Positions 1,131-24,975 of a stretch of DNA of 32,781 nucleotides are shown here, one piece after another; positions within the stretch are counted from its first letter, which is position 1, and every line of letters starts with the position of its first letter. Source of the DNA: Bacteroidota bacterium (GTDB lineage Bacteria > Bacteroidota > Ignavibacteria > Kapaibacteriales > NICIL-2); assembly GCA_019695345.1 (NCBI GenBank), contig JAIBAE010000050.1, positions 1 to 32,781 of the forward strand, given 5' to 3'. The position numbers were made by a program, and so were the translations under genes. The notes under the pieces are model-generated. The model did no database searches. It was not told the DNA's origin and saw nothing but the letters and a program-made list of their open reading frames with translations.

Positions 1131-1204
1131 GTCTTTCCGCCTTTGCCGAAGCAAAAAGTACTGCGCGGTAACCCAGTCCGCTCCGCTCCTTCTGCGGCGC
1201 AATT
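1131..1204 (+). repeat. Dispersed intergenic repeat family A, copy A1
   Basis: The core blocks are tgccgaagcaa, gcgcggtaaccca, tccgctcc and ttctgcggcgcaatt. They match six other copies in the window in the same order. The element begins 4 nt after the stop of the small exported protein, in the same orientation. Confidence 0.75.
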
Positions 1205-1247
1205 GAAGAACGTTCTTCACGGTGACACGATGTTAATACAGAGGTCT

Positions 1248-1310
1248 GTTCTTTCCGGCAGATTGTTGTTGTGTTGAAGTAGTAGGTGTGGTGCCGTTTG
1301 CGATAGCAAA
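1248..1310 (-). repeat. Dispersed intergenic repeat family B, copy B1
   Basis: On the minus strand it starts tttgctatcgc, runs through acggcacc and ends with tgccggaaagaac. These are the same two ends as at 12453-12534 and 10043-10107. It stops 2 nt before the 3' end of the neighbouring minus-strand lipoprotein gene. Confidence 0.7.
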
Positions 1311-1312
1311 TG

Positions 1313-2080
1313 TTAATTAGTAGCACCAAGCACACACCGTTTACGAACGGATGAGCCTTCGCCAAGACGTGCTTCTATTACATAATCGCCATCCGGAAGT
1401 AGCTTGCCTTTATCGTTAAATCCATCCCACGTTATTTCGTATCTACCGGGTTGTAATGATTTTGTGAGAATTGTTCGCACAACCATTGCATTTGTTGAAT
1501 ACACTACAACCGTTACTGTTGTTACTTCGGGGAGTGTAAACTGAACTCTGGGTGTTACATCTTCTGCCAAACCAAGTACCGAGGCAATTTGCCCTAATGT
1601 TACCGACATTCCTGCAATCTGTGCCGGTTTAAATAACGGTGCCGCCATTGAGTTTTGAATTGCAAGCTGGTGCTGAACATTTTCGCGTGGGTCGGGGGTG
1701 TAAGCTTGTTCGGGTACTTGCATGTTACGCATTGCAATTTGCCACGGGGTTTCTTGTTGCGCCCGCCGAACCATTTCGATGTTAGTAAGTGTACGTTTGG
1801 CATCGAGTGTAAAGCGAACTCCATTTGGAATTCTTAACCGCATTGCACGGAAGTAATTTGTGTCTTGCAATGGATGATACGCATTACTTGGAGAACCTCC
1901 GGGCAGTGAATCTTCGATTATCTTTACCGGCTTTAGAGATGTATCGGCTTTTACAGCGTCTTCAGGTTTAAGTACTTTGGGATGTTGCGGAATAGGCGGG
2001 TCGTCGCTTGTTTGGCTTAACACTGAACATGCGCTAACAAGTAAGATTACGGTACAACAAACAACGAAACGATTCGGCAT
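1313..2080 (-). CDS. Lipoprotein with C-terminal FlgD-like Ig domain
   Basis: This 255-residue protein has a short hydrophobic leader and a lipobox-like VSAC with Cys18, so it is probably a lipidated envelope protein. The middle (residues 30-180) is proline-rich and I do not recognise it. The last roughly 70 residues (185-255) resemble the FlgD Ig-like fold: a VTVVVYSTN strand, then ITWDGFNDKGKLLPDGDYVI, the signature 'WDG.(D/N)..G...P.G.Y' seen in FlgD_ig and in the C-termini of many secreted FCB proteins. It ends in KRCVLGATN, so it is not a classical T9SS type A tail. The gene is convergent with the small exported protein, and the gap between them is filled by repeats. Its partner and exact role are unknown. 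Confidence 0.8.
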   Translation of the reverse strand: MPNRFVVCCTVILLVSACSVLSQTSDDPPIPQHPKVLKPEDAVKADTSLKPVKIIEDSLPGGSPSNAYHPLQDTNYFRAMRLRIPNGVRFTLDAKRTLTNIEMVRRAQQETPWQIAMRNMQVPEQAYTPDPRENVQHQLAIQNSMAAPLFKPAQIAGMSVTLGQIASVLGLAEDVTPRVQFTLPEVTTVTVVVYSTNAMVVRTILTKSLQPGRYEITWDGFNDKGKLLPDGDYVIEARLGEGSSVRKRCVLGATN

Positions 2081-2153
2081 ATCAATTCATATTAAACGTA
2101 AAAGAGTAATCGTGTTGTGATTAACGCTACAGTTTGATTACACTTTAAAAATA

Positions 2154-2187
2154 CAAAGCCGCAGGTTATTAACTACCGGCGGCTTTG
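2154..2187 (-). terminator. Terminator hairpin of the S1-protein gene
   Basis: The arms caaagccgc (2154-2162) and gcggctttg (2179-2187) form a 9-bp stem, extended inward by ggt/acc. On the minus strand the stem is followed by tatttttaaag, a U-rich tail. It lies about 40 nt beyond the stop of the S1-domain gene. Confidence 0.8.
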
Positions 2188-2228
2188 CAAGACGATTAAG
2201 AAAACACAATGTTTCCTGTTCCTATTAG

Positions 2229-3917: not shown

Positions 3918-4000
3918 ATGGTAAAACGGGTTACGAATATAAGGGTAGAGTTTTAAACCACAACCCTTTTAAACGAAAGAAAATACAAGAACTTAAATTT

Positions 4001-4075
4001 GGTGTCCCGCCCTCTGCCGAAGCCACCCGCAAGCGCGGCAACCCGGTCCGAACCAACCCCTTCAGCGGCGCAATT
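4001..4075 (+). repeat. Dispersed intergenic repeat family A, copy A2
   Basis: It contains ctctgccgaagcc, gcgcggcaacccggtccgaa and ttcagcggcgcaatt in family order. Its orientation is opposite to both flanking minus-strand genes. It lies upstream of the S1-protein gene and 35 nt past the stop of the metallo-hydrolase-like gene. Confidence 0.75.
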
Positions 4076-4110
4076 GTTTCAATTACGAAACTGTAACAAC
4101 GTAGCTCATT

Positions 4111-5331: not shown

Positions 5332-5525
5332 TTGGTAATCCTTTTAGGTTATGTTGAACAAATCCCCTTGTACACTTCCGGGTGCCTGCTACATTACCGC
5401 ATGCTTAGTAATACGTGTATTGATTATCCCCGCGATACTCAAATACTAAAGGCGTTAGTGTTTGGTTGAGCGTAGAGTTAGAAAAAGTACTGTTGGTTTA
5501 CACAGCTACTTAAGATTTAACATAT

Positions 5526-5603
5526 CACTTGCGCCGCACACGGGTGGGGTTCGCACCGGGTTGGCGCGCTTGAGGTTTGCTTCGGCTGAAGAGGGAAGCA
5601 CAA
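5526..5603 (-). repeat. Dispersed intergenic repeat family A, copy A3
   Basis: The minus strand reads ttcagccgaagcaa, gcgcgccaacccggtgcgaa and tgcggcgcaagtg. It begins 4 nt past the stop of the GH3 gene, in the same orientation as that gene. Confidence 0.75.
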
Positions 5604-5607
5604 AATG

Positions 5608-7164
5608 CTATTTTATGGTAAGTGATTTACCAGTCATAGTTAAACATGCCGCTCCTCTGCTTGGCTTGGAGTCGGAATAGCTGAGAATATGTACATGGGC
5701 AGGAAATGTTTCCGCCAGATACGGATTGCCAAAAAGAACGGCAATAGTTGGCTTGCTGCCTGCAATGCGTTGCGCGGCTTCTACCAGTTTGGAATCAATT
5801 TGTACGGTTCCTGCATAACTGCGCGGACGTGCAAACACGGCAAATACAAAACACTCGGCATCCTGCGTACCGCGAATGTATTCTTCAACGTCATCGTTAG
5901 TGATGGAAGAGTTCATGTAAGCTAGGTCGGTGTTTTTCTCGTACACTTGCGCAAGGTAATGGAAGAACTCGCTTGCGGGGTCAATCGTGTCGTCGGAAAG
6001 AAGTGCAAACACCGCAACATGATTGTATTGCTCTAACGGCAGGATAGATTCATCGCCTTCTATGCGCGTAGCTTGGATAGCAGCTTTAAGCGCAAGCATT
6101 CCGTGTTCTTCCAGCGAGATAACTTCTTGTTTATGTTGCTTACGCTCCAGTAAACCGCACCAATGTTTTGCTGTTGCAATGCGGGCTACACTTTCCTGAA
6201 TACGTTGGGCAGATAATACACCGTTTTGTACAGCTGCAATAAGTGCCTGCGCGGCTTCCATTGGGTTTTCGGGGATGAGAGCAATATCGCATCCTGCCTG
6301 AATTGCCTGTACTGTTGCTTCGGCAGAAGAGTATTGTTTTGTAATAGCGTGCATATCAAGTGCATCGGTTACAATCAAACCGTTAAAGCGCATTTTGTTG
6401 CGTAATAAATCCGAGATAAGGATTGGAGAAAGTGATGCCGGAGTGTTGGAGGAATCGAACGATGGGACTGCAAGATGTGCAACCATTACCGATGCAACTT
6501 CTCCGCGAATAGCAGAAAGAAAAGGTACTAACTCCTGCGATGCAAGTTGTTCGCGCGAGTGATGAAGCACCGGCATGGAGATGTGGGAATCGGTTGCAGT
6601 ATCGCCATGACCCGGAAAGTGTTTGGCGCATGCAAGAATGTGTTCTTCCTGCGTGCCTTGAATATATGCTAACGAGTGTGGAATAACATCGCCAATTACT
6701 TCGCCAAAGGCGCGGGTGTTAATAATTGGATTTTGTTTGTTGGAGTTTATATCACACACAGGAGCAAAGTTCCAATGGATGCCAATGCCCTTGGCTTCTT
6801 TAGCAATGGCTTGTGCTACACGTTTTGTTAACGCGGTATCGCCTTGTTTGCCAAGTGCCATTGCATGGGGGAAATCTGTTCCGCCTTCTAATCGCATTGG
6901 CAAGCCGTGTTCGTAATCGGCACTAAAGAGAAGTGGAATATCCGCTTGTGCTTGCAACTCGGCAAGTATCTGTGCAGTTTCTTCCATCCCTCCCTGAAAC
7001 ACACAAAAGCCGCCAACACCCATTTCTATCAGGTCGCTGCATTGCTTACGGTACTCCTCGTTTGCTTTGTACTCGTTTGGTACTAACGATGGCATTAGTA
7101 ACTGCAGGACAATCTTTTCCGGTGGTATATCTTGAAAATGTTGGTGTTGCATTCTGTGCTCCAT
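5608..7164 (-). CDS. Glycoside hydrolase family 3, beta-N-acetylhexosaminidase (NagZ-like)
   Basis: This 518-residue protein is predicted to cleave beta-linked N-acetylglucosamine, for example from muropeptides during peptidoglycan recycling. The N-terminal TIM barrel (about residues 15-335) contains the NagZ-subfamily loop KHFPGHGDTATDSH (181-194), whose Asp-His pair acts as the acid/base, and VTDALDMHAI (265-274) with the nucleophile Asp267. A C-terminal alpha/beta domain (about 350-518) makes it longer than E. coli NagZ (~340 residues). It resembles the two-domain GH3 enzymes of Bacteroidota and Firmicutes. No signal peptide is evident, so it is probably cytoplasmic. The C-terminus (YSDSKPSRGAACLTMTGKS) looks slightly short for the family, and repeat A3 follows 4 nt after the stop. 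The start may be Met1 or Met5. The terminator at 7166-7202 lies immediately upstream. Confidence 0.9.
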   Translation of the reverse strand: MEHRMQHQHFQDIPPEKIVLQLLMPSLVPNEYKANEEYRKQCSDLIEMGVGGFCVFQGGMEETAQILAELQAQADIPLLFSADYEHGLPMRLEGGTDFPHAMALGKQGDTALTKRVAQAIAKEAKGIGIHWNFAPVCDINSNKQNPIINTRAFGEVIGDVIPHSLAYIQGTQEEHILACAKHFPGHGDTATDSHISMPVLHHSREQLASQELVPFLSAIRGEVASVMVAHLAVPSFDSSNTPASLSPILISDLLRNKMRFNGLIVTDALDMHAITKQYSSAEATVQAIQAGCDIALIPENPMEAAQALIAAVQNGVLSAQRIQESVARIATAKHWCGLLERKQHKQEVISLEEHGMLALKAAIQATRIEGDESILPLEQYNHVAVFALLSDDTIDPASEFFHYLAQVYEKNTDLAYMNSSITNDDVEEYIRGTQDAECFVFAVFARPRSYAGTVQIDSKLVEAAQRIAGSKPTIAVLFGNPYLAETFPAHVHILSYSDSKPSRGAACLTMTGKSLTIK

Positions 7165-7165
7165 A

Positions 7166-7202
7166 AAACAAAAAACCTCAAACGCAAAGTGCGAATGAGG
7201 TT
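7166..7202 (-). terminator. Rho-independent terminator of the PKD/T9SS gene
   Basis: On the minus strand, aacctca...cgca and tgcg...tgaggtt arms (7174-7202) close a 3-nt loop and are followed by ttttttgtttt. It separates the PKD gene from the GH3 gene, whose start is only a few bases downstream. The GH3 message therefore needs readthrough or a promoter overlapping this structure. Confidence 0.88.
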
Positions 7203-7238
7203 CAAAGATAACGAAGCTGTTTGGTTAAAACGTTAACA

Positions 7239-8264: not shown

Positions 8265-8618
8265 AAAATCTCCTTAATAGACAATGGCAATATCAATCTG
8301 TACGGAAAACCGTATTACGTAGTGGTAATGTACCTTCAACGTTCTTTAGGTTACAAACAATTACAAGATTCTATCAAAAATACTGATTGTTTGCTAACGC
8401 AGTCCGCACCTACCGTAAATTTAGGGAGTGCAACCCTGCTTAGCGGGAAGAATCCCTCTGCACAAACATCACGGTAACCGTTTTAGTGTAATGTGAGGGA
8501 CTGTGCTGCAATAAGGAGATGTGGTGTTCATATAGTGGTGCGGTGCAGTCCGGCGATAGCAAAGTTTGAAATTCGGTTGTATTTTGCAGTAAATATATTA
8601 CTATACACAGGTGGGGCT
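8265..8618. other. 354-nt divergent intergenic region with repeat-like ends
   Basis: The region lies between two divergent genes and must hold both promoters, which I cannot place. It has a small hairpin tacgg-aaaa-ccgta at 8301-8314. At 8390-8410 there is a family B-like end (tttgctaacgc, ccgcacc), and at 8535-8563 a second family B end in inverse orientation (ggtgcgg, gtccggcgatagcaaa). Together they give a roughly 174-bp element with imperfect terminal inverted repeats. Inside it, gtgca (8428-8432) and tgcac (8459-8463) bracket another possible hairpin. No gene is visible. Confidence 0.55.
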
Positions 8619-9500: not shown

Positions 9501-9524
9501 TTATCTAACTTAACAGGAGAATGT

Positions 9525-10040
9525 ATGGATTTGAAAACCATAGCTACGTTTAATAGTTCTGCCGAAGCGCATGTAGCGCAGGATTATTTGAAGGTGCATA
9601 ATATTACATCGTACATTGCCGATGAGAATACAACAAACCTAACTATTAATCTATCTGGGGCTTCGGGATATAGCGATGTCAAAATTCGTGTTAAAGAACA
9701 TGATGCGGAAAAAGCAGCACAGTTGATTCAACAGCTTCGCAATGGTAACAGCAACAACCAATTAAAAGCAGAGCGTAAAGTAGTTACGATTCCCAAAGAG
9801 GAAGAGGTGAAGAATTGTCCGGCGTGTAATTCAGACTCCATAGAGAAAACGGGTTATAACTTGTATGTGGTTATAGTAGCCGTTGTATTTGTAAATATGT
9901 TATACTTCTTTTCTAACTATGCGATTGTCGTTGCTGCTGTTGGTTTGATTTCTGTTACATTAATTATATACATACTTCGTATGGAACGTTACACATGTTA
10001 CTCATGTCATCACCTTTGGCGTGTTAAAAGGGAAGGGTAG
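9525..10040 (+). CDS. DUF2007-like protein with split zinc-ribbon and two membrane helices
   Basis: This 171-residue protein begins with a DUF2007-type 'putative signal transducing' domain (about residues 3-72): KTIATFNSSAEAHVAQDYL, a middle strand, then VKIRVKEHDAEKAAQLI. Two cysteine pairs follow, CPAC (98-101) and CYSC (158-161), separated by two predicted transmembrane helices (about 112-129 and 132-151). The pairs would lie on the same side of the membrane and could together bind one zinc. Aggaga precedes the ATG. Its position 24 nt after the channel gene suggests co-transcription, but no functional link is proven. The DUF2007 family has no established biochemical role. A family B repeat starts 2 nt after the stop. 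Confidence 0.82.
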   Translation: MDLKTIATFNSSAEAHVAQDYLKVHNITSYIADENTTNLTINLSGASGYSDVKIRVKEHDAEKAAQLIQQLRNGNSNNQLKAERKVVTIPKEEEVKNCPACNSDSIEKTGYNLYVVIVAVVFVNMLYFFSNYAIVVAAVGLISVTLIIYILRMERYTCYSCHHLWRVKREG

Positions 10041-10042
10041 TG

Positions 10043-10107
10043 ATTCTTTCCGACAAGGCAACGGTGTTTGATGTATATGGTTTGGTGCCGTCGGGCGATA
10101 GCAGAAA
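10043..10107 (-). repeat. Dispersed intergenic repeat family B, copy B3
   Basis: The minus strand reads tttctgctatcgcccgacgg, caccaaac and finally gtcggaaagaat. It fills almost the whole 70-nt gap between two convergent stop codons, 2 nt from one and 3 nt from the other. Confidence 0.72.
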
Positions 10108-10110: not shown

Positions 10111-12387
10111 TTACGCTACATCAAAAAAGTTTTGATCGCTTTTATATTGCCGCAGAAATTCTGTGCGGGTTGCTGTGTGTTCGGGTTTGCGTAAATGGGG
10201 GTCGGACGCAACTATACCAAACGCTGCTTTCTTTGCTTGTTCTATGGCAAGTTCATCGTTAACTAAATCGGCAAAGGTAAAATCGGGAACACCCGATTGC
10301 CGCGTACCCATTACATCGCCCGGACCGCGCAGGCGTAAATCAACTTCTGCAATTTTAAATCCGTCGGTAGTTTCTTCCATTGTTCGTAAACGGATAATAG
10401 CACTAAGCTTTTCTTGTTGCTCGGCTTCTTTCTTTTTCATGTGGAAGGCAAAGTGGTCTTTGGTGGCAAGCAGACAGTAACTTTGCTCCGAGCCACGACC
10501 AACACGTCCGCGAAGTTGGTGTAGTTGGGCTAAGCCAAACCGCTCGGCATTCTGTATAAGCATAACACTTGCGTTTGGAACATCAATACCAACTTCCACA
10601 ACGGTAGTAGCAACAAGAATCTGATACTCTTTGTTTAAGAATGCTTTCATGGCATCTTCTTTTTCGTACCATAACATTTGCCCGTGTAACAGCCCAAGTT
10701 TAAATTCGGGAAATACCTCGTGTTGTAGTTCTTCTAAAGCAAGAGTTGCGGCTTTAAGTTCCAGCTTTTCCGATTCCTCTACCAACGGATACACAATGTA
10801 CGCTTGCCTGCCTTTTTGAATCTCACTGCGGATAAAATCGTACTGCTTTTGCAAACCGCTTTCAAACACAACTTTTGTAATAATTGGTTTGCGGTTTTTA
10901 GGAAGCTCGTTGATAACGGAAACATCTAAATCGCCATACAGCGTCATGGATAATGTTCGCGGAATTGGCGTTGCACTCATTACCAAAACATGGGGCGCTA
11001 GCGGTGTTTGGCTCTCGTGCGAACGAACTCCCAACTCGCGGAGTTTAGCACGTTGCATAACACCAAAGCGGTGTTGCTCATCAATTACAATCAATCCTAC
11101 TTTGTTGTATTGTAACCATAAATTCTCAACATCTTTTTTAGAGCTGCCACCAAACAACGCGTGCGTTCCAATTATTATCTGCGCACGCCCGGAACCAATT
11201 TCGTCAAGTACTGCATTACGTGCGCGTTTCTTTTGTCCGCCCACAACCTGCACAACATTCACATCCATATCGCCAAGAAGTTTCTTGATGTTTTGGTAAT
11301 GTTGTTCGGCGAGAATTTCGGTAGGAGCTAATAGCAACGATTGAAATCCGTTATCAGCCGACATCAACATAGTTAGTAATGCCACAATTGTTTTACCCGA
11401 ACCAACATCACCTTGTAACAAACGATTCATGGGTTTGTCGGTTTTCATATCGGCAACTATTTCGTTAATCACTCGCTTTTGTGCTTGCGTAAGTTCAAAA
11501 GGTAAAGCGTCCAGCAGCTTACGCGCAGTAGGCGATGGCGGAGGAATAACCGGTGCTTTATCACGAACCTTAACTCCTTGCTGGCGCAAGGCAAGCAACA
11601 GTTCAAAAAAGAATAACTCTTCAAACTTCATGCGGTTTTTAGCACTGCGTAAATGTTCGGCAGACTCCGGAAAGTGCAGTGCTTCTATTGCCTCAGAACG
11701 ATTTGGGAAGTTGTATTCATGGAGCACGCTTGCTGGCAATACTTCGTTGATGTTTGGTTTCTCTTGGTCAATCACTAACTCAACCAAATTTCTGAAACCG
11801 CGCATACCAATGTTTGCGTTTTTCATTGGTTGCGTTAGCGTGTACTTTGGGATAATCTTTCCTGCTTTATACAACTCCTCATCTTCGGGGTCAATGCGTT
11901 CAATATCGGGGTGTGTAAACGTAACTTTCCCAAACTTATCCAAATCGGGCTTACCACTTACGGCAAACACTTCCTCTTGTTTTACAACTCTTCGGAAGTA
12001 CTCAATAAAATTAAAGAAGATAACATTGGCATCCGCGCCACTGCCATCGCTAAACGTAGCAATCAGCATCTTGCGCCCTTTGCCAAACTGATGTTCACGG
12101 ATTTTAGTAAACGCACCCACAATTGTAATCTCGCTTCGTAACGCCTCAATTGTTTCGCGCGATTCTTTATCAAACACATCGGGGTTTAGCATACGACGGT
12201 GCAGTGTGCGGATATTCCCAATAGAAGACCTATCAATATACGAGCGCGGAATGTACATCAGTAAATCGCGCGGGGTAAGGATTCCTGCTTGTGCAAGTGC
12301 TTCTGCGCGCTTGGGACCTACACCTTTAACAAACTGTAAAGGCGAAACATGTGTTTTAGGTATTTCTTGTTGTGGCGCGTCGCTCAT
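10111..12387 (-). CDS. recG: ATP-dependent DNA helicase RecG
   Basis: RecG remodels stalled replication forks and Holliday junctions. The 758-residue protein has the N-terminal wedge/OB region (about 15-165, starting LQFVKGVGPKRAEAL). The superfamily 2 helicase core follows, with Walker A GDVGSGKT (326-333), the motif Ia-like LLLAPTEILAEQH, the DEQH box (436-439), motif III SATPIPRTLS (471-480), TTVVEVGIDVPNA and motif VI QLHQLRGRVGRG (621-632). The C-terminal RecG region (VDLRLRGPGDVMGTRQSG) is intact. It is somewhat longer than E. coli RecG (693 residues), partly through an insertion near residues 63-85 of the OB region. It is convergent with the DUF2007-like gene. A long antisense frame inside it is a shadow. 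Confidence 0.98.
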   Translation of the reverse strand: MSDAPQQEIPKTHVSPLQFVKGVGPKRAEALAQAGILTPRDLLMYIPRSYIDRSSIGNIRTLHRRMLNPDVFDKESRETIEALRSEITIVGAFTKIREHQFGKGRKMLIATFSDGSGADANVIFFNFIEYFRRVVKQEEVFAVSGKPDLDKFGKVTFTHPDIERIDPEDEELYKAGKIIPKYTLTQPMKNANIGMRGFRNLVELVIDQEKPNINEVLPASVLHEYNFPNRSEAIEALHFPESAEHLRSAKNRMKFEELFFFELLLALRQQGVKVRDKAPVIPPPSPTARKLLDALPFELTQAQKRVINEIVADMKTDKPMNRLLQGDVGSGKTIVALLTMLMSADNGFQSLLLAPTEILAEQHYQNIKKLLGDMDVNVVQVVGGQKKRARNAVLDEIGSGRAQIIIGTHALFGGSSKKDVENLWLQYNKVGLIVIDEQHRFGVMQRAKLRELGVRSHESQTPLAPHVLVMSATPIPRTLSMTLYGDLDVSVINELPKNRKPIITKVVFESGLQKQYDFIRSEIQKGRQAYIVYPLVEESEKLELKAATLALEELQHEVFPEFKLGLLHGQMLWYEKEDAMKAFLNKEYQILVATTVVEVGIDVPNASVMLIQNAERFGLAQLHQLRGRVGRGSEQSYCLLATKDHFAFHMKKKEAEQQEKLSAIIRLRTMEETTDGFKIAEVDLRLRGPGDVMGTRQSGVPDFTFADLVNDELAIEQAKKAAFGIVASDPHLRKPEHTATRTEFLRQYKSDQNFFDVA

Positions 12388-12452: not shown

Positions 12453-12534
12453 TTTGCTATCGCCGGACGGCACCAAACGTTAATGCACGGGCAGAAAATT
12501 TTCTGCCCAACCACCTCACTATGCCGGAAAGAAC
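12453..12534 (+). repeat. Dispersed intergenic repeat family B, copy B4 (with palindrome)
   Basis: It begins tttgctatcgccggacggca followed by ccaaacgtt and ends tgccggaaagaac. The middle holds the perfect palindrome gggcagaaaattttctgccc at 12489-12508, which recurs exactly at 28888-28907 inside another family B copy. Confidence 0.8.
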
Positions 12535-13771: not shown

Positions 13772-13841
13772 TTCTCATCCGCCTGCGGTGGTGCGGTGTT
13801 GTTAAACGCCCGGTGCGGCAATGCGTAAGCAAAGAAGTGAA
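13772..13841 (+). repeat. Direct repeat C1 (family B/C subfamily)
   Basis: This 70-bp block matches 16358-16427 at 67 of 70 positions. Weaker similarity extends about 30 bp upstream in both copies, from atccacgat. Its right end (cggtgcggcaatgcgtaagc, aaa) aligns with the family B end, so C is a subfamily of B. Confidence 0.88.
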
Positions 13842-13915: not shown

Positions 13916-16195
13916 CTATCTATTCAGCACAAATACAGTAGATGCTGTTTTGTTGTTTGTTGCATTGCGAATTGTTAGAGTATATGTTCCATTTGCTAAT
14001 GAATCATCCAATGGTAGCGTTAGTGTGTTTGTACCAGATTGAACACTACATAGTTTATGTTGAATAATCTTGCCATCTATCATACTTATCTCCATAATAA
14101 CATTTCCGGATACTTGCGTAGTTCCGTTAACAGTAACAATGCCAGTGCTTGGGTTTGGATGAAGCGTTGTAATAGTTATATCTGTATTTGTTTGTGGTGA
14201 TTGATCTGTATCACTTTTTATATCGGTACTTCCATCTATATACTTACTCACATCCCAAACTTTGGCGGTGCCATCTGCACCTGCGGTAACAATTCGGTCT
14301 CCTTTATGGTTAAAGTTTGCCATATTTATGGCACCATGATGTCCGTTAATAGTAGCTAATAGTTCGCCGCTCTGTGTGTTCCAAATTTTGGCGGTGCTAT
14401 CGTAACTTGCAGTTACCAATAATGTACCGGATGAGTTAAAGTTTGCACTGTGTATGAATCCTGAATGTTTATTTAATGTAAAAAGTAGAGTTCCTTTTTG
14501 ATCATCCCATATTTTAACGGTGTTATCTCTGCTTGTGGTGGCAATCAGATTACCAGCCGTGCTACAAGTAACGTTGGTTAACTCGTCCTTATGTCCACGT
14601 AATGTATAAAGTAGAGTACCTTTTTTTGTATCCCATATTTTGGCTGTACTATCTCTGCTAGCAGATACGATGTGGCTTTCTGTACTATTATAACAGGCCT
14701 TTAACACATCCGAAGTATGACCTCGTAAAGTAAATATTGAATCCCGTGTCTCTGCATTCCAAATTCGGACAGTGCTATCGGCGCTTGCAGTCAGAATGCG
14801 AGTAGTTGCGTTATTAAAATATGCAGAGTAGATTCCCTGAGTATGCCCCAATATAGTTCTCAGAAGATGACCTGTGTTTGCTTGCCAAATATTAACAGCA
14901 CCATCCCAACCAGCTGTTAATACTTGATCTCCTGCTTGGCTAAAGTTAGCAGACGAGACGTATGATGAATGACCTTCTAAGTTAGCAATATGAGTATCTG
15001 AATTTATATTCCACAACTCGGCAAAATTATTCTTTCGGGTTGTTACCATGTATGTTCCTGTGCTGTTAAAATGTGCAGTATTGATTACACCGATATTACC
15101 TTTGAATTGCCTAATGTATCTCCCGGTAGCAGCATCCCAAAGAAGCGTACTTGCATCACTACCGGTAACTATTCGGTCATCTGCGTTGTTGTATTCTGCA
15201 GTGGTTACTATCCCTGTGTGGCCTGCAAATGTTGCAGTATTTGTACCCGAGTTGATATCCCAAATCTTTACAGTACCATCGGAACCGGTTGTGATGATAT
15301 TATTATCTGTGTTGTAAAAAAATCCGGATACAACAACACCTTTATGTCCGTAAAAAGAGTTTATAAGTTTTCCCGAACTTACGTCCCAAACCTTAGCGGT
15401 TTCATCAAAGCTGGTTGTAAGTGCAAAATTTCCTGAATTACTAAAGCGACCTGAGTTTATATAGCCAACATGGTGCCCTGCAAGTGTACTCACAAGAGCT
15501 CCTGTATTTGCATCCCAAATCTTGGCTGTGTAGTCTTGACTAGTGGTTATTATATGCTTGTCATCTTTGGAATAAGAAGCTGAAGTGACTATTGCTGTGT
15601 GCCCTGCTAAAGTTGTAATGATGCTACTAGTATTAACATCCCAAATACTAGCGGTATTATCGCTGCTACATGTTATTATTCTATCGCCGGAGTTGTTAAA
15701 AACAGCAAAATATACTTCCTTGGGAGTAGTGATAGTTTTGACTAGCTTGCTGTTTGTGGTGTTCCATATCTGAACGGCTTTATCCGAACAAGCTATTACA
15801 ATATACTCGCCGGTTTGACTGAAACGTGTAGAATACACATACTCCGATTTTGTTGTTAATGTTGATATTACCCTGCCTGTTTTTGCATCCCATAAATTTA
15901 CAATGTTCTTTTGACTGCATGTAACAACCCGCTCGCCTGAAGAACTTATATCTGCAGTTGTAATATTATTGGTGGGAACCTGATGAGTTGCAATCAAATT
16001 TTGTGAACTTGCATCCCAGGTTGTAAACCCATATTGGTTATACGTGAGTATTGTACTGCTATTGGCACTTAAGGAAGAACCTAAACCGATGTACGGCGTC
16101 GTCCAGATAGGATTTTGTAAAGTATCAACTTGTGTGCGGGCATAGGTAATTGTAATACAGAAGCCCAAAGCGAGGGTAAGGAATAATCGTTTCAT
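13916..16195 (-). CDS. Large exported WD40-repeat protein with T9SS sorting domain
   Basis: This 759-residue protein has a signal peptide (residues 1-19, ending TYA). About fifteen consecutive WD40 units follow (roughly residues 30-655), each with the pattern 'F...G..i.T.S.D.TakIWd...g..l.tl.GH'. Clear examples are DNTASIWDVNTSSIITTLAG and DSTAKIWDTKKGTLLYTLRG. Fourteen units would make two seven-bladed propellers, with one extra unit. Residues ~680-759 form a T9SS type A sorting domain (LHPNPSTGIVTVNG to ASTVFVLNR), so the propellers are displayed on or released from the cell surface. WD40 propellers are protein-binding platforms and no enzyme domain is seen. Exported WD40 proteins with this tail are less usual than cytoplasmic ones. 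The gene is bracketed by the direct repeats C1 and C2. Confidence 0.92.
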   Translation of the reverse strand: MKRLFLTLALGFCITITYARTQVDTLQNPIWTTPYIGLGSSLSANSSTILTYNQYGFTTWDASSQNLIATHQVPTNNITTADISSSGERVVTCSQKNIVNLWDAKTGRVISTLTTKSEYVYSTRFSQTGEYIVIACSDKAVQIWNTTNSKLVKTITTPKEVYFAVFNNSGDRIITCSSDNTASIWDVNTSSIITTLAGHTAIVTSASYSKDDKHIITTSQDYTAKIWDANTGALVSTLAGHHVGYINSGRFSNSGNFALTTSFDETAKVWDVSSGKLINSFYGHKGVVVSGFFYNTDNNIITTGSDGTVKIWDINSGTNTATFAGHTGIVTTAEYNNADDRIVTGSDASTLLWDAATGRYIRQFKGNIGVINTAHFNSTGTYMVTTRKNNFAELWNINSDTHIANLEGHSSYVSSANFSQAGDQVLTAGWDGAVNIWQANTGHLLRTILGHTQGIYSAYFNNATTRILTASADSTVRIWNAETRDSIFTLRGHTSDVLKACYNSTESHIVSASRDSTAKIWDTKKGTLLYTLRGHKDELTNVTCSTAGNLIATTSRDNTVKIWDDQKGTLLFTLNKHSGFIHSANFNSSGTLLVTASYDSTAKIWNTQSGELLATINGHHGAINMANFNHKGDRIVTAGADGTAKVWDVSKYIDGSTDIKSDTDQSPQTNTDITITTLHPNPSTGIVTVNGTTQVSGNVIMEISMIDGKIIQHKLCSVQSGTNTLTLPLDDSLANGTYTLTIRNATNNKTASTVFVLNR

Positions 16196-16357: not shown

Positions 16358-16427
16358 TTCTCATGCGCCTGCGGTGGTGCTGTGTTGTTAAACGCCCGGT
16401 GCGGCAATGCGTAAGCAAACAAGTGAA
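16358..16427 (+). repeat. Direct repeat C2 (family B/C subfamily)
   Basis: This is the partner of C1 in the same orientation, on the other side of the WD40 gene. Only three bases differ over 70 bp. It sits in the divergent space between the WD40 gene and rsmI. Confidence 0.88.
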
Positions 16428-17173: not shown

Positions 17174-17185
17174 GTACACATTTCC

Positions 17186-17803: not shown

Positions 17804-17815
17804 GATGACAATTAT

Positions 17816-17945
17816 AGTTTCCCTTCTGCAACGCAGCAACCCATTTAGCGCGCAAACCCGGTGCGAACCCGGCATTTCTGCGGCGCTGTAACGGTTGGCT
17901 CCGCCCGGGTGACGGCGCAGAAGAGTTGCCTCGGCAATGGCGGGA
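17816..17945 (+). repeat. Dispersed intergenic repeat family A, copy A4, plus a partial inverse copy
   Basis: The first part (17816-17891) carries ttctgcaacgcagcaaccc, agcgcgcaaacccggtgcga and ttctgcggcgc in family order and in the same orientation as tmk. The second part (about 17892-17945) reads on the minus strand as ccattgccgaggcaa, cttctgcgccg and cacccgggcgg. This looks like a degenerate inverted copy, making the whole a possible long hairpin. Confidence 0.65.
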
Positions 17946-18047
17946 ACCAACAATACAATCTATATGTTGAGTAACAAAGCAATGTGGAAACATACATTGT
18001 AGCAAATAGCAAGAAAATAAATGTATCAAAATTATTATAGTAGTTCT

Positions 18048-20525
18048 ATGAAGCAACTTCGCACATATATACTGAGTGTAATAACACTTACTATTGTTGG
18101 TAGCATTGCAGGATATGCGCAAACGCGTGTGTTCTCGGCTCAGCAATTTTTACGTCCATCAACTAATAAACAATCGGTTCAACTTGCATCGTCGGTTAAT
18201 GCAAAGGCAATTCAGTACGATGCAGAATCAGCCCGCCAGATGTTGATGAATAACTCGGCATCGGTTATTAAAGTTACCGATTTTCCAATAAGCACTACCG
18301 AAACACAAACAGTTGATTTTATGCCTATGAATCCTGTTATGGATGGCGCAACCCACGTGTATAAATCAACACCAAACGGTGAAGTTGAGATTCCAATTCC
18401 GGCAATGATTGCCTACAAAGGAAGAATTAAAGGGGAGGATAATTCGCGCGTTATTATGGTGTACGCAGGCAATGAAATGTATTGCTCTGTTCAACGCCAG
18501 AATGGTGTTATGTCGCAAATTACACCCGAAGTAAATTCTAAAACGGGAAATCATTTGCTTTCTGCTGTTACCAATACCGGATTTGATTTTACCTGTTACG
18601 CTGATAGAATAGATGATTACCACCATACTATGAATGCAAATGCAGCTTTATACAGTAAAGGTAGTAATAAACTGATGGGTACAAACCTGTTAGAAATTGA
18701 AGTAGCATTAGATATTGACCATTTGTTCTATGCAAAATTTGGGAACAACCAAGATAAACTGATGAAATATGTGTTCTCGATTTTTGCAATGGTAAGCATG
18801 AAGTACGAAGACGAAGCAAATGTTACCTTTAAGATTGGAACCGTAATAATACGCCCCGATGCAGCCAGCGACCCATATACCCAAAATATAAAAGGCGATA
18901 TTAGCGCATTGTTAGGTGAGTTTCAATCGCAATGGCGCAGTAAACATACTAATGTAAGCCGCGATATAGCACACATGTTAACAGCCCCGGGCTCAACAAG
19001 TGTTGGTGGTATTGCTTTCTTGGATGTCTTGTGTAATAAAAACAGAGGTTACGGAGTAAGTGGCGTACAAGGCGTGTATAAACTTCCTTCGGTGGGTTAT
19101 ACATGGGATGCTATGGTTGTTACGCACGAAATTGGACATAACTTTTCGGCACCACACACACACGCTTGCGTGTGGAATCCACCAATTGATTCATGTGTAA
19201 CTACTGCTACTATTGGTGATGCTTGTACATCGGGTGAACCCAAACTTAACCCCGGCAGTATTATGAGTTATTGTCACTTAATACAGCCGGCTTCGCGTTA
19301 TACATTTTTACCACAAGTTGCGGCAGTAATACGTACTGGTGCAGAAAGAGCAACAAGTTGTATATCGGCTCCAGCAAGTGCAGTTGTGCGTGTTGTGTAT
19401 CCCATTGGCGGACAAGATCAGGTTTTCCGTAGTGATACAACAATTACCGTAAAATGGAATTCAGCAAAAGTAAATACAGTTAATGTGGAGTACTCGTTGG
19501 ATAGTGGTGCAACATGGGTGACAATTGCCAATGGTTTGGCTGCTACACAAAAAAGTGTGCAATGGGCATTACCTGATGTATCAAGCAAAGTAGCACGAGT
19601 ACGCGTATATGATGTAAGTAATCAATTAATCGGCGATACAACCTATACATCATTCTCTATTGGAACAGCTTCTATTCAGGTTACGTATCCTGCAGGGGGC
19701 GAACGTATGGGGCAAGGTATATCTCAAAACCTAACCTGGAATACTACATTGGTAAAATCGGTAAATGTTCAGTTTTCTGCAACGGGTGTTGCACCGTGGA
19801 CTACACTTGCAAGTTCTTCAACAGGTAATGCACTAACATGGACTGTTCCAATGGTATCAACTAACACCGCTAAAATTCGTGTTGTAGATGCTTCCAACAG
19901 CGAGTTACTTTCCGAAAGTAATGAGTTTGCTATTGGTGTTGCTACATTAGAGTTACTTAGTCCATTAGGTGGTAACACCTATTGTGTAGGTGATACGGTT
20001 AATGTTGATTGGAAAAGCGATTTTATTGATAACGTGAAAATTGACTTCTCTACAAATAATGGTCAGACTTTTAGTATTTCCGGTAGAATTGCAAGTTCAA
20101 CTCCGGCACGAACACAAACATTACGCTGGATTGTACCTAACCGCCCAACTACCGAAGGTAAAGTACGAATTAGTAACCTTGCTAACACTGATATGCTGGA
20201 TATATCCGATGCCGCGTTTATAGTAAAAGTATGCGAAACAACAGATGTTTCCGAAAACACTTTGCCGGAATTTAGTGCTGCGTTATTCCCAAATCCGGCA
20301 ACTAATAAAGTATGTATGCGGGTTTCCGGTGCTGCCTCAACACGTTTTGCGGACTGTTATTTGGTGAATTTGCGTGGGGAAAAAATAATGTTAGGAACAG
20401 CATTAATTCAGAACGGAAATTCACTTTTAGAATTTGATGTGCGCGTTGTTCCACAAGGGACGTATATTTTTGCAGTGGAATCTCAGGGCAAAGTATTGCA
20501 CTTGCCGTTTTCCATTAGCAGATAA
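18048..20525 (+). CDS. Secreted M12B-like zinc metalloprotease with T9SS sorting domain
   Basis: This 825-residue protein has a signal peptide ending GYAQ (about residue 25), a propeptide-like region (30-210), and a reprolysin-type metalloprotease domain (about 215-425). The domain holds the zinc motif HEIGHNFSAPH (360-370), i.e. HExxHxxxxxH, and the Met-turn SIMSYCH (404-410). Paired cysteines (C374, C383, C393) fit the ADAM-like fold. Three similar Ig-like repeats follow, each starting VxYPxGG or LSPLGG and containing WNS/WNT...V.V..S.....W..l. These are at roughly 430-515, 520-600 and 605-690. A T9SS type A domain closes the protein from ALFPNPATNK. The frame also allows Met at 18021, but the ATG at 18048 gives the cleaner signal peptide. 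It is predicted to be an extracellular protease. Substrates are unknown. Confidence 0.93.
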   Translation: MKQLRTYILSVITLTIVGSIAGYAQTRVFSAQQFLRPSTNKQSVQLASSVNAKAIQYDAESARQMLMNNSASVIKVTDFPISTTETQTVDFMPMNPVMDGATHVYKSTPNGEVEIPIPAMIAYKGRIKGEDNSRVIMVYAGNEMYCSVQRQNGVMSQITPEVNSKTGNHLLSAVTNTGFDFTCYADRIDDYHHTMNANAALYSKGSNKLMGTNLLEIEVALDIDHLFYAKFGNNQDKLMKYVFSIFAMVSMKYEDEANVTFKIGTVIIRPDAASDPYTQNIKGDISALLGEFQSQWRSKHTNVSRDIAHMLTAPGSTSVGGIAFLDVLCNKNRGYGVSGVQGVYKLPSVGYTWDAMVVTHEIGHNFSAPHTHACVWNPPIDSCVTTATIGDACTSGEPKLNPGSIMSYCHLIQPASRYTFLPQVAAVIRTGAERATSCISAPASAVVRVVYPIGGQDQVFRSDTTITVKWNSAKVNTVNVEYSLDSGATWVTIANGLAATQKSVQWALPDVSSKVARVRVYDVSNQLIGDTTYTSFSIGTASIQVTYPAGGERMGQGISQNLTWNTTLVKSVNVQFSATGVAPWTTLASSSTGNALTWTVPMVSTNTAKIRVVDASNSELLSESNEFAIGVATLELLSPLGGNTYCVGDTVNVDWKSDFIDNVKIDFSTNNGQTFSISGRIASSTPARTQTLRWIVPNRPTTEGKVRISNLANTDMLDISDAAFIVKVCETTDVSENTLPEFSAALFPNPATNKVCMRVSGAASTRFADCYLVNLRGEKIMLGTALIQNGNSLLEFDVRVVPQGTYIFAVESQGKVLHLPFSISR

Positions 20526-20548
20526 TAATCATCAATCAGTATTTATCA

Positions 20549-21454: not shown

Positions 21455-21460
21455 TTGGCT

Positions 21461-21530
21461 TCGGTTCTGCGCCGTAGCAACCCATCCAGCGCGCCGACCC
21501 AGCGCGAACCGATTGTTGCGCATCGCGCAG
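21461..21530 (+). repeat. Dispersed intergenic repeat family A, copy A5
   Basis: It contains ttctgcgccgtagcaaccc, agcgcgccgacccagcgcga and tgcgcatcgcgcag. It starts 7 nt after the proline dehydrogenase stop, in the same orientation. Confidence 0.72.
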
Positions 21531-21632
21531 GATTGCATAATTATTTGTATTGAATTATTTAGAATTCCTGTGTGTTATTTGCGCGGCTCAGATCTAAATT
21601 AAAGCTAAGTACTCAGTTACCCTCATACGTTT

Positions 21633-22565
21633 ATGCGTAACATCTTTCCCTTCGGCGTGGTATTTAAGTACACACTGATTATTGTTGTGCTGTTAGGTAG
21701 TTCTTCCGTTGTTTATTCTCAGGTTTATCGCTCTGTACCCGTAACTGCAAAGTTGGCTGTGGAGAATGCAAAAAAGTATTTAGAGTTTAAAGGGTACTTT
21801 GATGCACGATTAATATATGTAGTACCGGGTGAATGGGAAATTGATAACCGTGATACTGTCGTTGTAAAACATAAGCCAGATTCTTTAAACCCCAATTATT
21901 ATGAGTGGACAGGCCAGTATTGGTGGTGGAATCTATACTTTATTACCGATAGCATCAGTAGTGATAAAATGCTTTGGCTTGCAACAGGGTTAGATTCTTT
22001 GGTAGGGTGGGACTATGATTTAAGAGTAGAGGAAAGGAATCCAGACATCCCTACTGTTAATGATATAGGTATAGTAGATTCTATGTGGATTGATAGTGAT
22101 AGTATAGCCAAATTACCACGTTTGTTAGATAAAGGAAATTGGAGATGGGTGTTCATGGAGTTTCGACCTATTCTAGAGATAGGTAGTTATTTTGAAAAAG
22201 ATAGTGCTAAAAACATACCCTGCGCATACTGGAAGCTTGTTTCTACAGCTAATAAAATTTTATTTCTCGGTACAGGGAAATTTATTCACCATAGTGTTAT
22301 ATGTATTATGTCCGTCCACGATTCACCAGAACTTGCGACTAACATTATACAACCTCATCCTGTCCGGCAGATGTTTAGTATAAAGGAAGAAGAGACTATT
22401 GAATCAGTTCAACTATACTCACTTCTTGGCGAGGTGCAACAACGTTGGGATACTGTATTACCGCATCAGGTACTTTCGGTTGCAGGTGTTCCGCATGGGT
22501 TGTACATGCTACGGTATTTGATTAATGGAAGAACGTATACATTCCCAATACAAATAACACAGTAG
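21633..22565 (+). CDS. Secreted protein of unknown family with T9SS tail, tandem paralog 1
   Basis: This 310-residue protein has a signal peptide ending VYSQ (about residue 30). Residues ~31-170 form a conserved domain shared with the next gene: VYRSVPVTAKLAVENAKKYL, EFKGYFDARL and the tryptophan-rich EWTGQYWWWNLYFITDS. I do not recognise the domain. Residues ~175-225 diverge strongly between the two paralogs. The last roughly 75 residues, from IQPHPVRQMFSI to PIQITQ, match the T9SS type A pattern, so the protein should reach the cell surface. The paralog starts 37 nt downstream. Base composition looks more AT-rich than the housekeeping genes beside it. The function is unknown. Confidence 0.85.
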   Translation: MRNIFPFGVVFKYTLIIVVLLGSSSVVYSQVYRSVPVTAKLAVENAKKYLEFKGYFDARLIYVVPGEWEIDNRDTVVVKHKPDSLNPNYYEWTGQYWWWNLYFITDSISSDKMLWLATGLDSLVGWDYDLRVEERNPDIPTVNDIGIVDSMWIDSDSIAKLPRLLDKGNWRWVFMEFRPILEIGSYFEKDSAKNIPCAYWKLVSTANKILFLGTGKFIHHSVICIMSVHDSPELATNIIQPHPVRQMFSIKEEETIESVQLYSLLGEVQQRWDTVLPHQVLSVAGVPHGLYMLRYLINGRTYTFPIQITQ

Positions 22566-22602
22566 CTGAAAATTGATTGTTCCTTAATGTTTAAGGTTTG
22601 TA

Positions 22603-23517
22603 ATGTTTTTAAGAATTACATATGTGCTGTTAATTCTGTTATGTGGAACATTGAGCACATTTGCTCAAGTATATCGCACCGTACCTGTAACTGCAAAGTG
22701 GGCTGTCGAGAATGCAAAAAAGTATTTAGAGTTTAAAGGGTATTATGATGCTCGGTTAGTATTTGTATCGACAGGTGAAACGATAAACAGTATTGATACT
22801 ATTATAGTTAAACATCAAGCAGATTCTATATATAATAACTATTACGAGTGGACAGGCCAATATTGGTGGTGGAATTTATACTTTATTACCGATAGTGTTA
22901 GAAACTCGGAGATGATATGGGTTGAAGCAGCATTAGATTCTTTAGCAGGTTGGGAATGTAGTTTAAAGGTTGTCCCAAGAAGAACTGAGATACCAATATT
23001 GAATGAGACCGGTATTGTAGATTCAATGTGGATTAATAGTGATAGTGTTACAAAACAACCAAGGATACTAAAGCCAAATTGTTGGTGGTGCTTGTTTGGT
23101 GTAGGTAAAACTGAAATGTTCCCAATCTTGCAACAACATACATATTCTGATAGTAGTAAGGTAAAGTCAATTGGTAGTAAATGGATACTTACAACAATCT
23201 TAGGGTTGCAGTTAGAGTTTAATGCAGAAACTGGGGAATATATAAGTACAGGTGTCATGTCGTTTAAAGGAGATTCACCAGAACTTGCTATCAATCTCAT
23301 TCAACCTCATCCTGTCCGGCAGACGTTTACTATAAAGGAAGATGAGACTATTGAATCAGTACTGCTATACTCACTTCTTGGCGAGGTGCAGCAACGTTGG
23401 GATACCGTATCACCTCATCAGGTACTTTCTGTTGCAGGTGTTCCGCATGGGTTGTACATGCTACGGTATTTGGTTGGTGGTAGGGCATTTTCAGTTCCAT
23501 TGGTAGTAGCTCCGTAA
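22603..23517 (+). CDS. Secreted protein of unknown family with T9SS tail, tandem paralog 2
   Basis: This 304-residue paralog of the preceding gene has a signal peptide ending TFAQ (about residue 22). It has the same N-terminal domain (VYRTVPVTAKWAVENAKKYL; EWTGQYWWWNLYFITDS) and a nearly identical sorting domain. Its 3' 201 bp (23272-23472) align without gaps to 22320-22520 at about 90% by eye. The central stretch (about 170-225, with PNCWWCLFGVG) is quite different from paralog 1 and includes two cysteines of its own. The tandem arrangement and conserved ends point to a recent duplication or to continuing gene conversion. The function is unknown. Confidence 0.85.
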   Translation: MFLRITYVLLILLCGTLSTFAQVYRTVPVTAKWAVENAKKYLEFKGYYDARLVFVSTGETINSIDTIIVKHQADSIYNNYYEWTGQYWWWNLYFITDSVRNSEMIWVEAALDSLAGWECSLKVVPRRTEIPILNETGIVDSMWINSDSVTKQPRILKPNCWWCLFGVGKTEMFPILQQHTYSDSSKVKSIGSKWILTTILGLQLEFNAETGEYISTGVMSFKGDSPELAINLIQPHPVRQTFTIKEDETIESVLLYSLLGEVQQRWDTVSPHQVLSVAGVPHGLYMLRYLVGGRAFSVPLVVAP

Positions 23518-23561
23518 AGTAAAACACATATCTCGTTTCGTAAATTCGTAATTTGCCATAC

Positions 23562-23638
23562 AATCTGCGCCGCACATCGGCTAGTTCGCGCCGGGTCTGC
23601 GCGCTGTTTGGATTGCTTCGGCAGATGAGGGAATCACG
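23562..23638 (-). repeat. Dispersed intergenic repeat family A, copy A6
   Basis: The minus strand reads catctgccgaagcaa, agcgcgcagacccggcgcga and tgcggcgcagatt. It lies between two plus-strand genes and is opposite in orientation to both. Confidence 0.75.
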
Positions 23639-23654
23639 AAAATTGTAGTTCACC

Positions 23655-23692
23655 AACGTCCTTCCTGTTACAACGAAGGACGTTCTTATTTT
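23655..23692 (+). terminator. Probable terminator hairpin
   Basis: The arms aacgtccttc (23655-23664) and gaaggacgtt (23675-23684) form a perfect 10-bp stem with a 10-nt loop, followed by cttatttt. It lies just before the ATG at 23700 and would separate the T9SS paralogs from the methyltransferase gene. The T-tract is interrupted, so an attenuator-like or purely structural role is possible. Confidence 0.6.
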
Positions 23693-23699
23693 ACTATGT

Positions 23700-24881
23700 A
23701 TGCTTATACTACCAAAACAAAAGATATTTGAAACGTTGCGTTCTGCGCAGTTTATTGCCACGTTTACCGGACGTAGCAGGCGGGATAGAGAAGTCTCGAA
23801 ACCCGTTACTAAGATGATTCTGAAAACCGTAGAGTTAAACGAACGTCCGCACGTGCAGCTAAATTCTTATACCGATACACAACACTTTACCACGAACAAG
23901 GAACTTACTCCAATTGCGTTAAACGAAATGCTTGATGCAATTATGGCGGAGAACTTTATGCAGGTGCATATCCAAACGCCGGAGCAAGATGTGTACTTTA
24001 GGGTGTTGAGCAAAGGAGTGAAACAATCATCTACCACGCCTTCTAAAAAAAATTGGGAAGCCGTTACTAAACACAACAACGAGAAACAGTATCTTATTAA
24101 CCCCGATAACGCGCGCATTCTGTTGTGGCAACTTGGCATTTGTAACGAGAAAGGTGTGTTGGTTCACGCCATGAGCGCAAAGTATAAACAAATAAATCAT
24201 TTCCTTTCCATTGCAACCAAGCTGAATGTATTTAAACAGGATTCCATTAGCATTGTAGATTGCGGTTGCGGAAAAGCGTATTTAAGTTTGGCGTTGTATC
24301 ATTACTTAACGGTGATTGCCAAAAAGAATGTTCACCTTGTTGGCATAGATACAAACAACGATGTAATTACCTTTTGTAATTCGTTGGCAAACAAGTTGGG
24401 GTATACGCAAGCACGTTTTGAATGTACTGCAATTGATGCCTACAACCACGCAGATTCCATTGATGTGTTGATTGCCTTGCACGCGTGCGATACCGCTACC
24501 GATGATGCCTTACACTTGGGCATGAACCTTCATGCAAAAGCAATTCTTGCTGCGCCCTGTTGCCACCATTACGTTAACGAGAAACTTCGCTCGGCACAGG
24601 CTCCGCCGCTAATTGCACCGTTACTTCGCGATGGTATTGCACGCGAGCGGTTTGCCGATTTACTCACCGATACCATGCGCAGAGATATATTACGCGCTTA
24701 TGGGTACTCGGCAGAGTTGATTGAGTTTGTATCGCCCGAGCATACAATGAAAAATATTATGATTCGTGCTGAGAAAAACGAAACGTATCACGAACCAAAC
24801 GCGGAACTCTTGCAGTTGGTTCGCATGGAGCGCGAGCAATGGAAAGCCGCACCAAAACTTGCCGAGGCAGTTGGGGTGTAA
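23700..24881 (+). CDS. SAM-dependent methyltransferase (Methyltransf_32-like)
   Basis: In this 393-residue protein the Rossmann-type methyltransferase domain lies at about 160-340. Motif I is IVDCGCGKAYLSLAL (185-199). LVGIDTNND follows as the acidic ribose-binding loop. VLIALHACDTATDDAL (257-271) and APCCHH (285-290) are the hallmarks of the PF13679 group (relatives of METTL25 and GSTCD). The N-terminal ~150 residues (with NERPHVQLNSYTDTQHFTTN) are conserved in character but not assigned. The substrate is unknown; an RNA or protein target is inference only. No signal peptide is present, so it is cytoplasmic. The hairpin at 23655-23684 precedes it, and repeat A7 begins 22 nt after the stop. 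Confidence 0.88.
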   Translation: MLILPKQKIFETLRSAQFIATFTGRSRRDREVSKPVTKMILKTVELNERPHVQLNSYTDTQHFTTNKELTPIALNEMLDAIMAENFMQVHIQTPEQDVYFRVLSKGVKQSSTTPSKKNWEAVTKHNNEKQYLINPDNARILLWQLGICNEKGVLVHAMSAKYKQINHFLSIATKLNVFKQDSISIVDCGCGKAYLSLALYHYLTVIAKKNVHLVGIDTNNDVITFCNSLANKLGYTQARFECTAIDAYNHADSIDVLIALHACDTATDDALHLGMNLHAKAILAAPCCHHYVNEKLRSAQAPPLIAPLLRDGIARERFADLLTDTMRRDILRAYGYSAELIEFVSPEHTMKNIMIRAEKNETYHEPNAELLQLVRMEREQWKAAPKLAEAVGV

Positions 24882-24902
24882 TGGGATTAGTTAGGTATGA
24901 AT

Positions 24903-24975
24903 TCGCTTCTGCGCCGAAGCAACCAATCCTGCTCGCAGACCCGGCGCGAGCCAAGCGGTACAGCTTCGCAGAAGT
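24903..24975 (+). repeat. Dispersed intergenic repeat family A, copy A7
   Basis: It contains cttctgcgccgaagcaacc, gctcgcagacccggcgcgag and a right end cttcgcagaag. In this copy the ends cttctgcg (24906-24913) and cgcagaag (24967-24974) are perfect inverted repeats. It has the same orientation as the methyltransferase gene. Confidence 0.75.

Follow-up and report, generated by a model that had tools for sequence, protein, structure and literature searches.

Intergenic Repeats at the Locus

The window analyzed here, a stretch of 32,781 nucleotides (nt) of the Bacteroidota contig JAIBAE010000050.1, carries two families of short structured repeats, A (about 72 nt) and B (a near-fixed length of about 64 nt). 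The initial annotation had recognized seven A copies, and all seven are present with their positions, strands and common blocks as reported; an eighth copy (A8), missed earlier, lies tail to tail with A4. Family B was revealed after masking A, and its members have TTCTTTCCCGCA as their 5' part and, after a variable middle, GGTGCGGTCNNGCGATAGCAAAA. The elements of the window are:

1130-1204 (+): A1, A element; in a doublet with the B element at 1249-1310
1249-1310 (+): B element; faces outward with its 3' end, which is 2 nt from the stop codon of the minus-strand gene at 1313
4001-4075 (+): A2, A element; both neighboring genes on the minus strand
5526-5603 (-): A3, A element; sense, behind the stop of the GH3 gene at 5608-7164 (-)
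8502-8563 (+): B element; in a divergent gap
10044-10105 (+): B element; flanked by convergent stop codons at 10040 and 10111
12453-12514 (-): B element; ahead of the recG-like gene at 10111-12387 (-)
17815-17887 (+): A4, A element; sense, behind the thymidylate kinase gene and on the left side of a tight doublet
17879-17950 (-): A8, A element; right half of the tight doublet, its 3' end overlapping that of A4 by 9 nt
21461-21530 (+): A5, A element; sense, behind the proline dehydrogenase gene
23562-23638 (-): A6, A element; both neighboring genes on the plus strand
24898-24975 (+): A7, A element; sense, behind the methyltransferase gene
28883-28944 (+): B element; upstream of a UDP-glucose dehydrogenase-like gene
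31643-31704 (-): B element; outer end 3 nt past the stop at 31639
13772-13841 (+): B-like copy, judged by eye; outside the B list at E<0.01
16358-16427 (+): B-like copy, judged by eye; outside the B list at E<0.01

The doublet of A1 and its neighboring B element takes up all but 2 nt at either end of the space separating two convergent stop codons. A recount agrees with the earlier report that five A copies in the window lie in sense orientation behind a stop codon and that A2 and A6 are opposite to both neighbors.

Abundance and Distribution

The genome of the window (G000; 4.56 Mb in 163 contigs) was represented by two sets of stretches: sample 1, comprising the window and 40 others (812,448 b), and a hold-out of 36 more (717,387 b; four of an original 40 were dropped for withheld bases), for 1.53 Mb together. 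These stretches, labeled with L-numbers (L059, L060, L062, L068, L072, etc.), were picked from contigs, many with known matches, so the samples were not drawn at random. Gene calls come from a simple hexamer caller (626 in sample 1 and 542 in the hold-out, with approximate start codons). Copies of A were counted at E<1e-5 and copies of B at E<0.01, corresponding in sample 1 to 130 of 136 and 220 of 233 rows, respectively.

The genome-wide search for further A copies that had been proposed returned hundreds, by core pattern, covariance model and profile. At up to three mismatches, the core pattern of A occurs at 261 places in the genome (0 for the reversed pattern); the covariance model matched all 150 of the candidates scored, out of 1349; and the profile had no match in the reversed hold-out sequence. 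The two samples hold 204 A and 377 B copies, and simple proportion places the genome total for A between some 470 (from the hold-out) and 730 (from sample 1).

Stricter filters were applied in searches across more than 40 genomes. Among 123 genomes of the order, the A model matched only G000 and a second genome, G002 (three matches, one of them weak), and in a sample of 395 genomes of the phylum it gave one weak match beyond G000 (G380, E 5e-5); the core pattern had one match, with a mismatch, in G014. The B pattern occurs at 482 places in G000 and at none in 121 other genomes of the order. The tight A-A doublet has no match in phage or plasmid collections, and family A has none in viral contigs. 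One viral-contig match to the B pattern was GC-rich sequence, judged by eye to be chance, and at least seven matches in a wider contig scan, from organisms named as other phyla, were also taken as chance. A literature search for related repeats, and for repetitive extragenic palindromic (REP) sequences together with termination, found no description of the A/B family.

Polarity and Placement

The two families obey a common polarity, in which the 5' end of A and the 3' end of B face outward, toward the genes. Of two elements sharing a gap, A+ or B- stands on the left and A- or B+ on the right; this order, derived from sample 1, holds in all 71 of its two-element gaps and in all 45 neighbor pairs of the hold-out. 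Overall, 116 of 117 same-gap neighbor pairs face outward (B-B 45, A-A 38, mixed 33), the sole exception being a B- B- pair at 352 nt, and mixed pairs fall below the roughly 58 expected from random pairing. All 25 A-A neighbors less than 1000 nt apart are tail to tail. Four A-A doublets overlap by 9 nt, including the one in the window (17819-17946), and in other doublets the interior spans anywhere from 7 to several hundred nt and contains further short repeats; many A and B copies stand singly. The doublet interiors in L060, L068, L080, L082, L083, and L090 contain repeats of the types TTTGCGTTCTTTGCG, GTCATTCTGAGCAACGCGAAGAATC, GGGCGAATN..ATTCGCCC, and AATTACGAATGACG.

The elements are strongly intergenic (a midpoint within a called gene in 5 of 581), and their outer ends hug stop codons. 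The median distance from outer end to stop is 11 nt for A and 5 nt for B, compared with 142 and 113 nt from the inner end (Mann-Whitney p 3e-23 and 3e-38); outer ends lie a median of 110 nt (A) and 78 nt (B) from starts. A stop lies within 20 nt of the outer end in 72 of 113 cases for A and 148 of 202 for B, and of the inner end in 9 of 95 and 22 of 189. Counting gaps of at least 60 nt, A or B elements occupy most convergent spacers (113/136) and about half of the others (divergent 83/160, co-directional 245/490).

The initial annotation had taken sense orientation behind stop codons as the rule for family A. This does not extend to the genome: in co-directional gaps, A has its outer end toward a stop (sense) in 64 cases and toward a start (antisense) in 46 (p = 0.10), and a further 37 A copies occupy divergent gaps, which offer no 3' end. 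The corresponding counts for B are 106 and 93 (p = 0.40). Because the sense bias is not significant, the sense rule is replaced here by the polarity described above, with the 5' end of A pointing out of the spacer. A sense-only element of the 3' untranslated region was rejected on the same 64 to 46 count, and an intrinsic terminator was rejected for A, since a run of at least four T within 15 nt after the element is no commoner than background (6/130 versus 10.1%; B not counted).

The Hairpin of Family A

The conserved part of A is a short central hairpin of four pairs, with one bulged base and a six-base, ACCCGG-like loop. In the hairpin alignment (designated A2, as distinct from the copy of that name; 103 of the 105 full-length copies), the best covarying columns are 45-52, 43-53, and 42-54, which together with C41-G55 make up the four-pair stem; column 44 is the bulged base, and the loop consensus is ACCCGG. 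Two-sided changes occur in 30, 43, and 32 sequences for these three pairs, respectively, and one-sided changes in none. The covariation score is 0.296, versus 0.099 for shuffled and at most 0.073 for slid versions, and the compensatory changes that had been suggested as a test of the family are thus present in its central hairpin. RNAalifold gave three pairs only on the 103 copies (-2.5 kcal/mol); the basis for the fourth pair and the bulge is therefore the covariation counts. The perfect terminal inverted repeat remarked upon in A7 is untypical of the family.

Across both samples, 716 of 720 stem cells in 180 A copies are Watson-Crick (four exceptions), and the stem occurs as five types. All 296 stem cells of the hold-out pair, two of them as T-G in the outermost pair. 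The three variable pairs contain no G-U among the 103 aligned copies, an absence that would be unusual under selection on RNA, and which suggests recognition on DNA or strict subfamilies. Two flanking mini-hairpins (columns 17-28 and 70-76) show little covariation and are not claimed, and an attC-like site or tRNA-like fold was considered by eye only and set aside.

One covarying pair was found in B, being C-G in 220, G-C in 107, and T-A in 17 of the 377 copies (92% paired). In 61 of 220 B copies, a motif near CACGATAACCGTT precedes the element by about 35 nt, compared with 6 in a downstream control. Some B copies also carry a palindrome, GGGCAGAAAATTTTCTGCCC, in their 5' part (window 12484-12508 and 28888-28912; L088 near 3860), where it looks inserted into that part or substituting for it.

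Conservation of the Stem

Copies of A are about 67% alike on average, and nearest neighbors 84-85%. Nearest neighbors differ at 26% of the 20 columns picked as variable and at 1.7% of the eight stem columns; with columns of equal information, the figures are 19% outside the stem and 2.2% for the six variable stem columns. The two A copies of L083 have identical stem letters.

Copies at a shared position are provided by one gene family, whose 3' end has 14 matches. Nine of these share a conserved trailer behind the stop, followed by A in five (3-38 nt away), by B in one and by neither in three; in the genome G002, of another genus, A stands about 4 nt behind the same trailer. The six trailer-linked A copies, one of them from the other genus, differ at 10-25 of 59 non-stem positions, yet at none of the eight stem positions in all 15 comparisons. 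Judged from these alignments, the persistence of the stem amid drift would reflect selection in place.

The trailer itself (CGGACGGCAACGGGTGACCGAG...) is noncoding, lies after the TGA stop of TPR/cyclase-like genes, and is followed by A or B in some cases but not in others; it may itself be an element. Trailer sites are located at L190:3499-3623 and 5759-5874; L059:13298-13416, 15401-15511, and 19232-19342; L062:9627-9743; L074:17465-17584; L091:4020-4134; L060:1502-1569; and L093:1581-1720.

Other features of the window include two adjacent paralogous genes, their family unknown, whose proteins are 56% identical (21633-23517), bracketed by A5 (+) and A6 (-), and coding tandem repeats with a 9-bp unit, close to the C-terminus of a protein with an S1 domain (2325-2405). 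Type IX secretion system (T9SS) sorting domains (Por_Secre_tail) are present among its proteins and suggest a member of the Bacteroidota. An Rfam scan of the window gave no match at the gathering score, and one sub-threshold match lies at 23648-23699, outside the A copies.

Origin and Possible Function

With slightly better than even confidence, we favor a reading in which these repeats are once-mobile, REP-like border elements, now held in place by selection on the hairpin. A and B would be two families of REP-like structured repeats serving as border marks of this lineage's intergenic spacers; each has one outer end (5' in A, 3' in B) facing the gene, such that spacers are bracketed A-A, B-B or A-B. 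In a past burst, they would have spread through the spacers as hairpin-ended, non-autonomous mobile DNA, in the manner of REPs and of their hairpin-forming doublets (REPINs), inserting where this was harmless, immediately after stop codons and ahead of promoters; at present, they would move little or not at all. What keeps the copies may be a protein that recognizes the bulged hairpin, as DNA or as RNA, at transcription-unit edges. The likeliest role would be that of REPs and of bacterial interspersed mosaic elements (BIMEs), namely limiting read-through, stabilizing 3' ends or binding DNA proteins, and A may also protect or trim mRNA 3' ends, as was proposed in the initial annotation.

The observed structure, polarity and placement, the constraint on the hairpin, and the presence or absence of elements among the trailer-sharing gene copies speak for this reading, in which mobility, the binding protein and an effect on expression are inferred. 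The sizes of convergent gaps agree with this origin. In G001, a relative from the same family that lacks these repeats (57% GC and 92% coding in the sample), such gaps have a median of 16 nt; in G000, a median of 13 nt is left once the doublet is subtracted. This remainder resembles the gaps of G001, which fits insertion into compact gaps, and the earlier suggestion of a non-autonomous mobile element is plausible as an origin.

A number of observations weigh against the favored reading. No target-site duplication was found: the longest word shared by the flanks of 71 doublets has a mean of 3.87, versus 3.95 shuffled; a target-duplicating repeat of the miniature inverted-repeat transposable element (MITE) type was rejected for the same reason. 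The transposase family PF01797, the only one searched, has four matches at three places in the genome; no A adjoins these places, two of which show other repeats, and one B lies about 130 nt from the PF01797 gene on contig C123. There are no clear recent copies: identity above 95% is found in a single pair among 180 A copies, 2.3 kb apart in one stretch, and the A copies are therefore considered old. The lack of target duplication, of an A-flanked PF01797 transposase and of clear recent copies leaves mobility a hypothesis. Singlets are not more decayed than doublets (0.662, n = 52, versus 0.668, n = 51; p = 0.29). Two of five whole-structure covariation measures, the number of double-change pairs and the number of further pair types, are within the shuffles (111/500 and 108/500), and the stem count of 180 copies excludes the 24 of 204 that are partial. 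Constraint at the time of propagation, or gene conversion homogenizing the stem, may have acted instead of selection in place. Finally, the frequency of elements in divergent gaps is unexplained by a function at 3' ends alone.

The PF01797 loci have features of their own. At L072:5707-6760, the transposase gene is flanked by GCTCCGATGGAGCTT-type repeats and, on the other side, by AGCTACGGAGTAGCGGC-type repeats, apparently its own REPs, and a second PF01797-like gene (L073:18260-18920) has GTCAGGTGTTACACCTGAC-type palindromes nearby. Separately, a tandem duplication at L082:11473-16220 (95.6% over 607 bp) cuts one gene copy exactly at the 5' end of an A element, which apparently supplies the stop codon of the truncated gene; a clean empty site is not seen there.

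Alternatively, A and B could be functional RNA boundary elements that act in sense on any transcript leaving a transcription unit, whether at the 3' end of an mRNA or on antisense RNA running divergently from a promoter; they would work as factor-dependent terminators, pause sites or exonuclease blocks, with mobility being irrelevant. In favor of this, the outer ends face genes on both sides (116/117 pairs), close to stops and farther from starts (11 and 110 nt for A, 5 and 78 nt for B), convergent gaps of at least 60 nt are mostly occupied (113/136) and the stem is constrained. Against it, the sense orientation in co-directional gaps reaches only 64:46 (A) and 106:93 (B); moreover, A is not followed by a T run, its three variable pairs lack the G-U that selection on RNA would lead one to expect, and no Rfam family matches in the window. 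We regard this explanation as unlikely.

A decidedly unlikely account is that of a neutral MITE/REPIN family without present function, in which the stem is kept only since folding was needed to transpose. Outward-facing doublets, the lineage-specific expansion (no match for B in the order's 121 other genomes, and A beyond G000 only in G002 among the 123) and the presence or absence of elements among paralogs speak for it. It is harder to reconcile with a single near-identical pair, from one stretch, in 180 copies whose stems are nevertheless unbroken (4 of 720 cells not Watson-Crick), with trailer-linked copies that retained the stem at the same position while drifting elsewhere, and with the lack of target duplication. 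That the ends bind a nucleoid or topology protein on DNA, as gyrase or IHF bind at BIMEs, and so isolate neighboring transcription units, is very unlikely. This account fits the absence of G-U from the variable pairs and the presence of elements in divergent as well as convergent gaps; against it, the binding protein is hypothetical, and a hairpin with bulge and loop points to a single strand over a duplex.

A more speculative proposal, which strikes us as distinctly improbable, is that of a genome-wide border system, in which interchangeable A and B ends of fixed outward polarity would bracket most convergent spacers and about half of the rest, and would stop or insulate anything exiting a transcription unit, in either direction, through recognition of the bulged, wobble-free hairpin. 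If true, this would be a class of transcription-unit boundary distinct from intrinsic or classic REP-type terminators. An untagged system of two families reaches 113 of 136 convergent spacers (at least 60 nt) in one lineage, with its hairpin intact amid drift. A and B offer a clean case for distinguishing junk that must fold in order to move from parts retained for a job at gene borders, and the two answers differ in what they predict for sister strains.

Comparison With Known Repeats

REP-like repeats have mostly been described in Proteobacteria, where they are tied to a GTAG tag and to a REP-associated tyrosine transposase (RAYT). The description of A as REP-like is borne out in its habit (high copy number, intergenic location, inverted doublets and stop hugging) and in the covariation of its hairpin, but not in the tests that define REPs. 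Those treated by Di Nocera et al. (2013; PMC3733652), of the GTAG and CGTC types, share with A and B the high copy number, intergenic location, a variable spacing within inverted dimers, the occurrence of both homo- and heterodimers, and species-specific families; as described there, convergent REPs lie mostly less than 20 bp from both 3' ends, and GTAG types are RAYT-associated. Their unit is 20-40 bp in that account, compared with 64-75 nt for A and B. In E. coli, TnpA_REP requires GTAG (PMC8266576). At the outer ends of our elements, GTAG is found in 12 of 204 copies of A and in 48 of 377 copies of B (background 8.0%) and CGTC in 7 of 204 and 2 of 377 (background 2.1%); a classic tagged REP was rejected, with no such tag at the outer ends (inner ends not counted). 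The polarity of A and B, furthermore, belongs to the outer end alone, and divergent gaps are also commonly occupied.

REPINs resemble A and B in that inverted doublets are over-represented (within 400-500 bp) and singlets frequent (Bertels and Rainey, 2011; PMC3116915). The theory given there expects singlets to be more decayed than doublets, whereas those of A are equal in decay; in addition, the PF01797 loci looked at carry repeats other than A, and in A/B two unlike end families pair together. REPs less than 16 nt from a stop codon damp translation (PMC12306157), an effect that the stop-hugging copies might share. The outer ends of A and B are often equally close to a stop, a likeness of distance alone; the antisense placements on the start side have no counterpart there.

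In the BIMEs of enterobacteria, palindromic units in opposite orientation enclose a mosaic spacer that contains other short repeats, and this feature is shared by the A and B doublets. The latter differ from BIMEs in sequence and size, in the absence of a REP tag, and in interiors with TTTGCG and TTCTGAGC types. On this comparison, A and B work like REPs and BIMEs, yet stand outside the described families.

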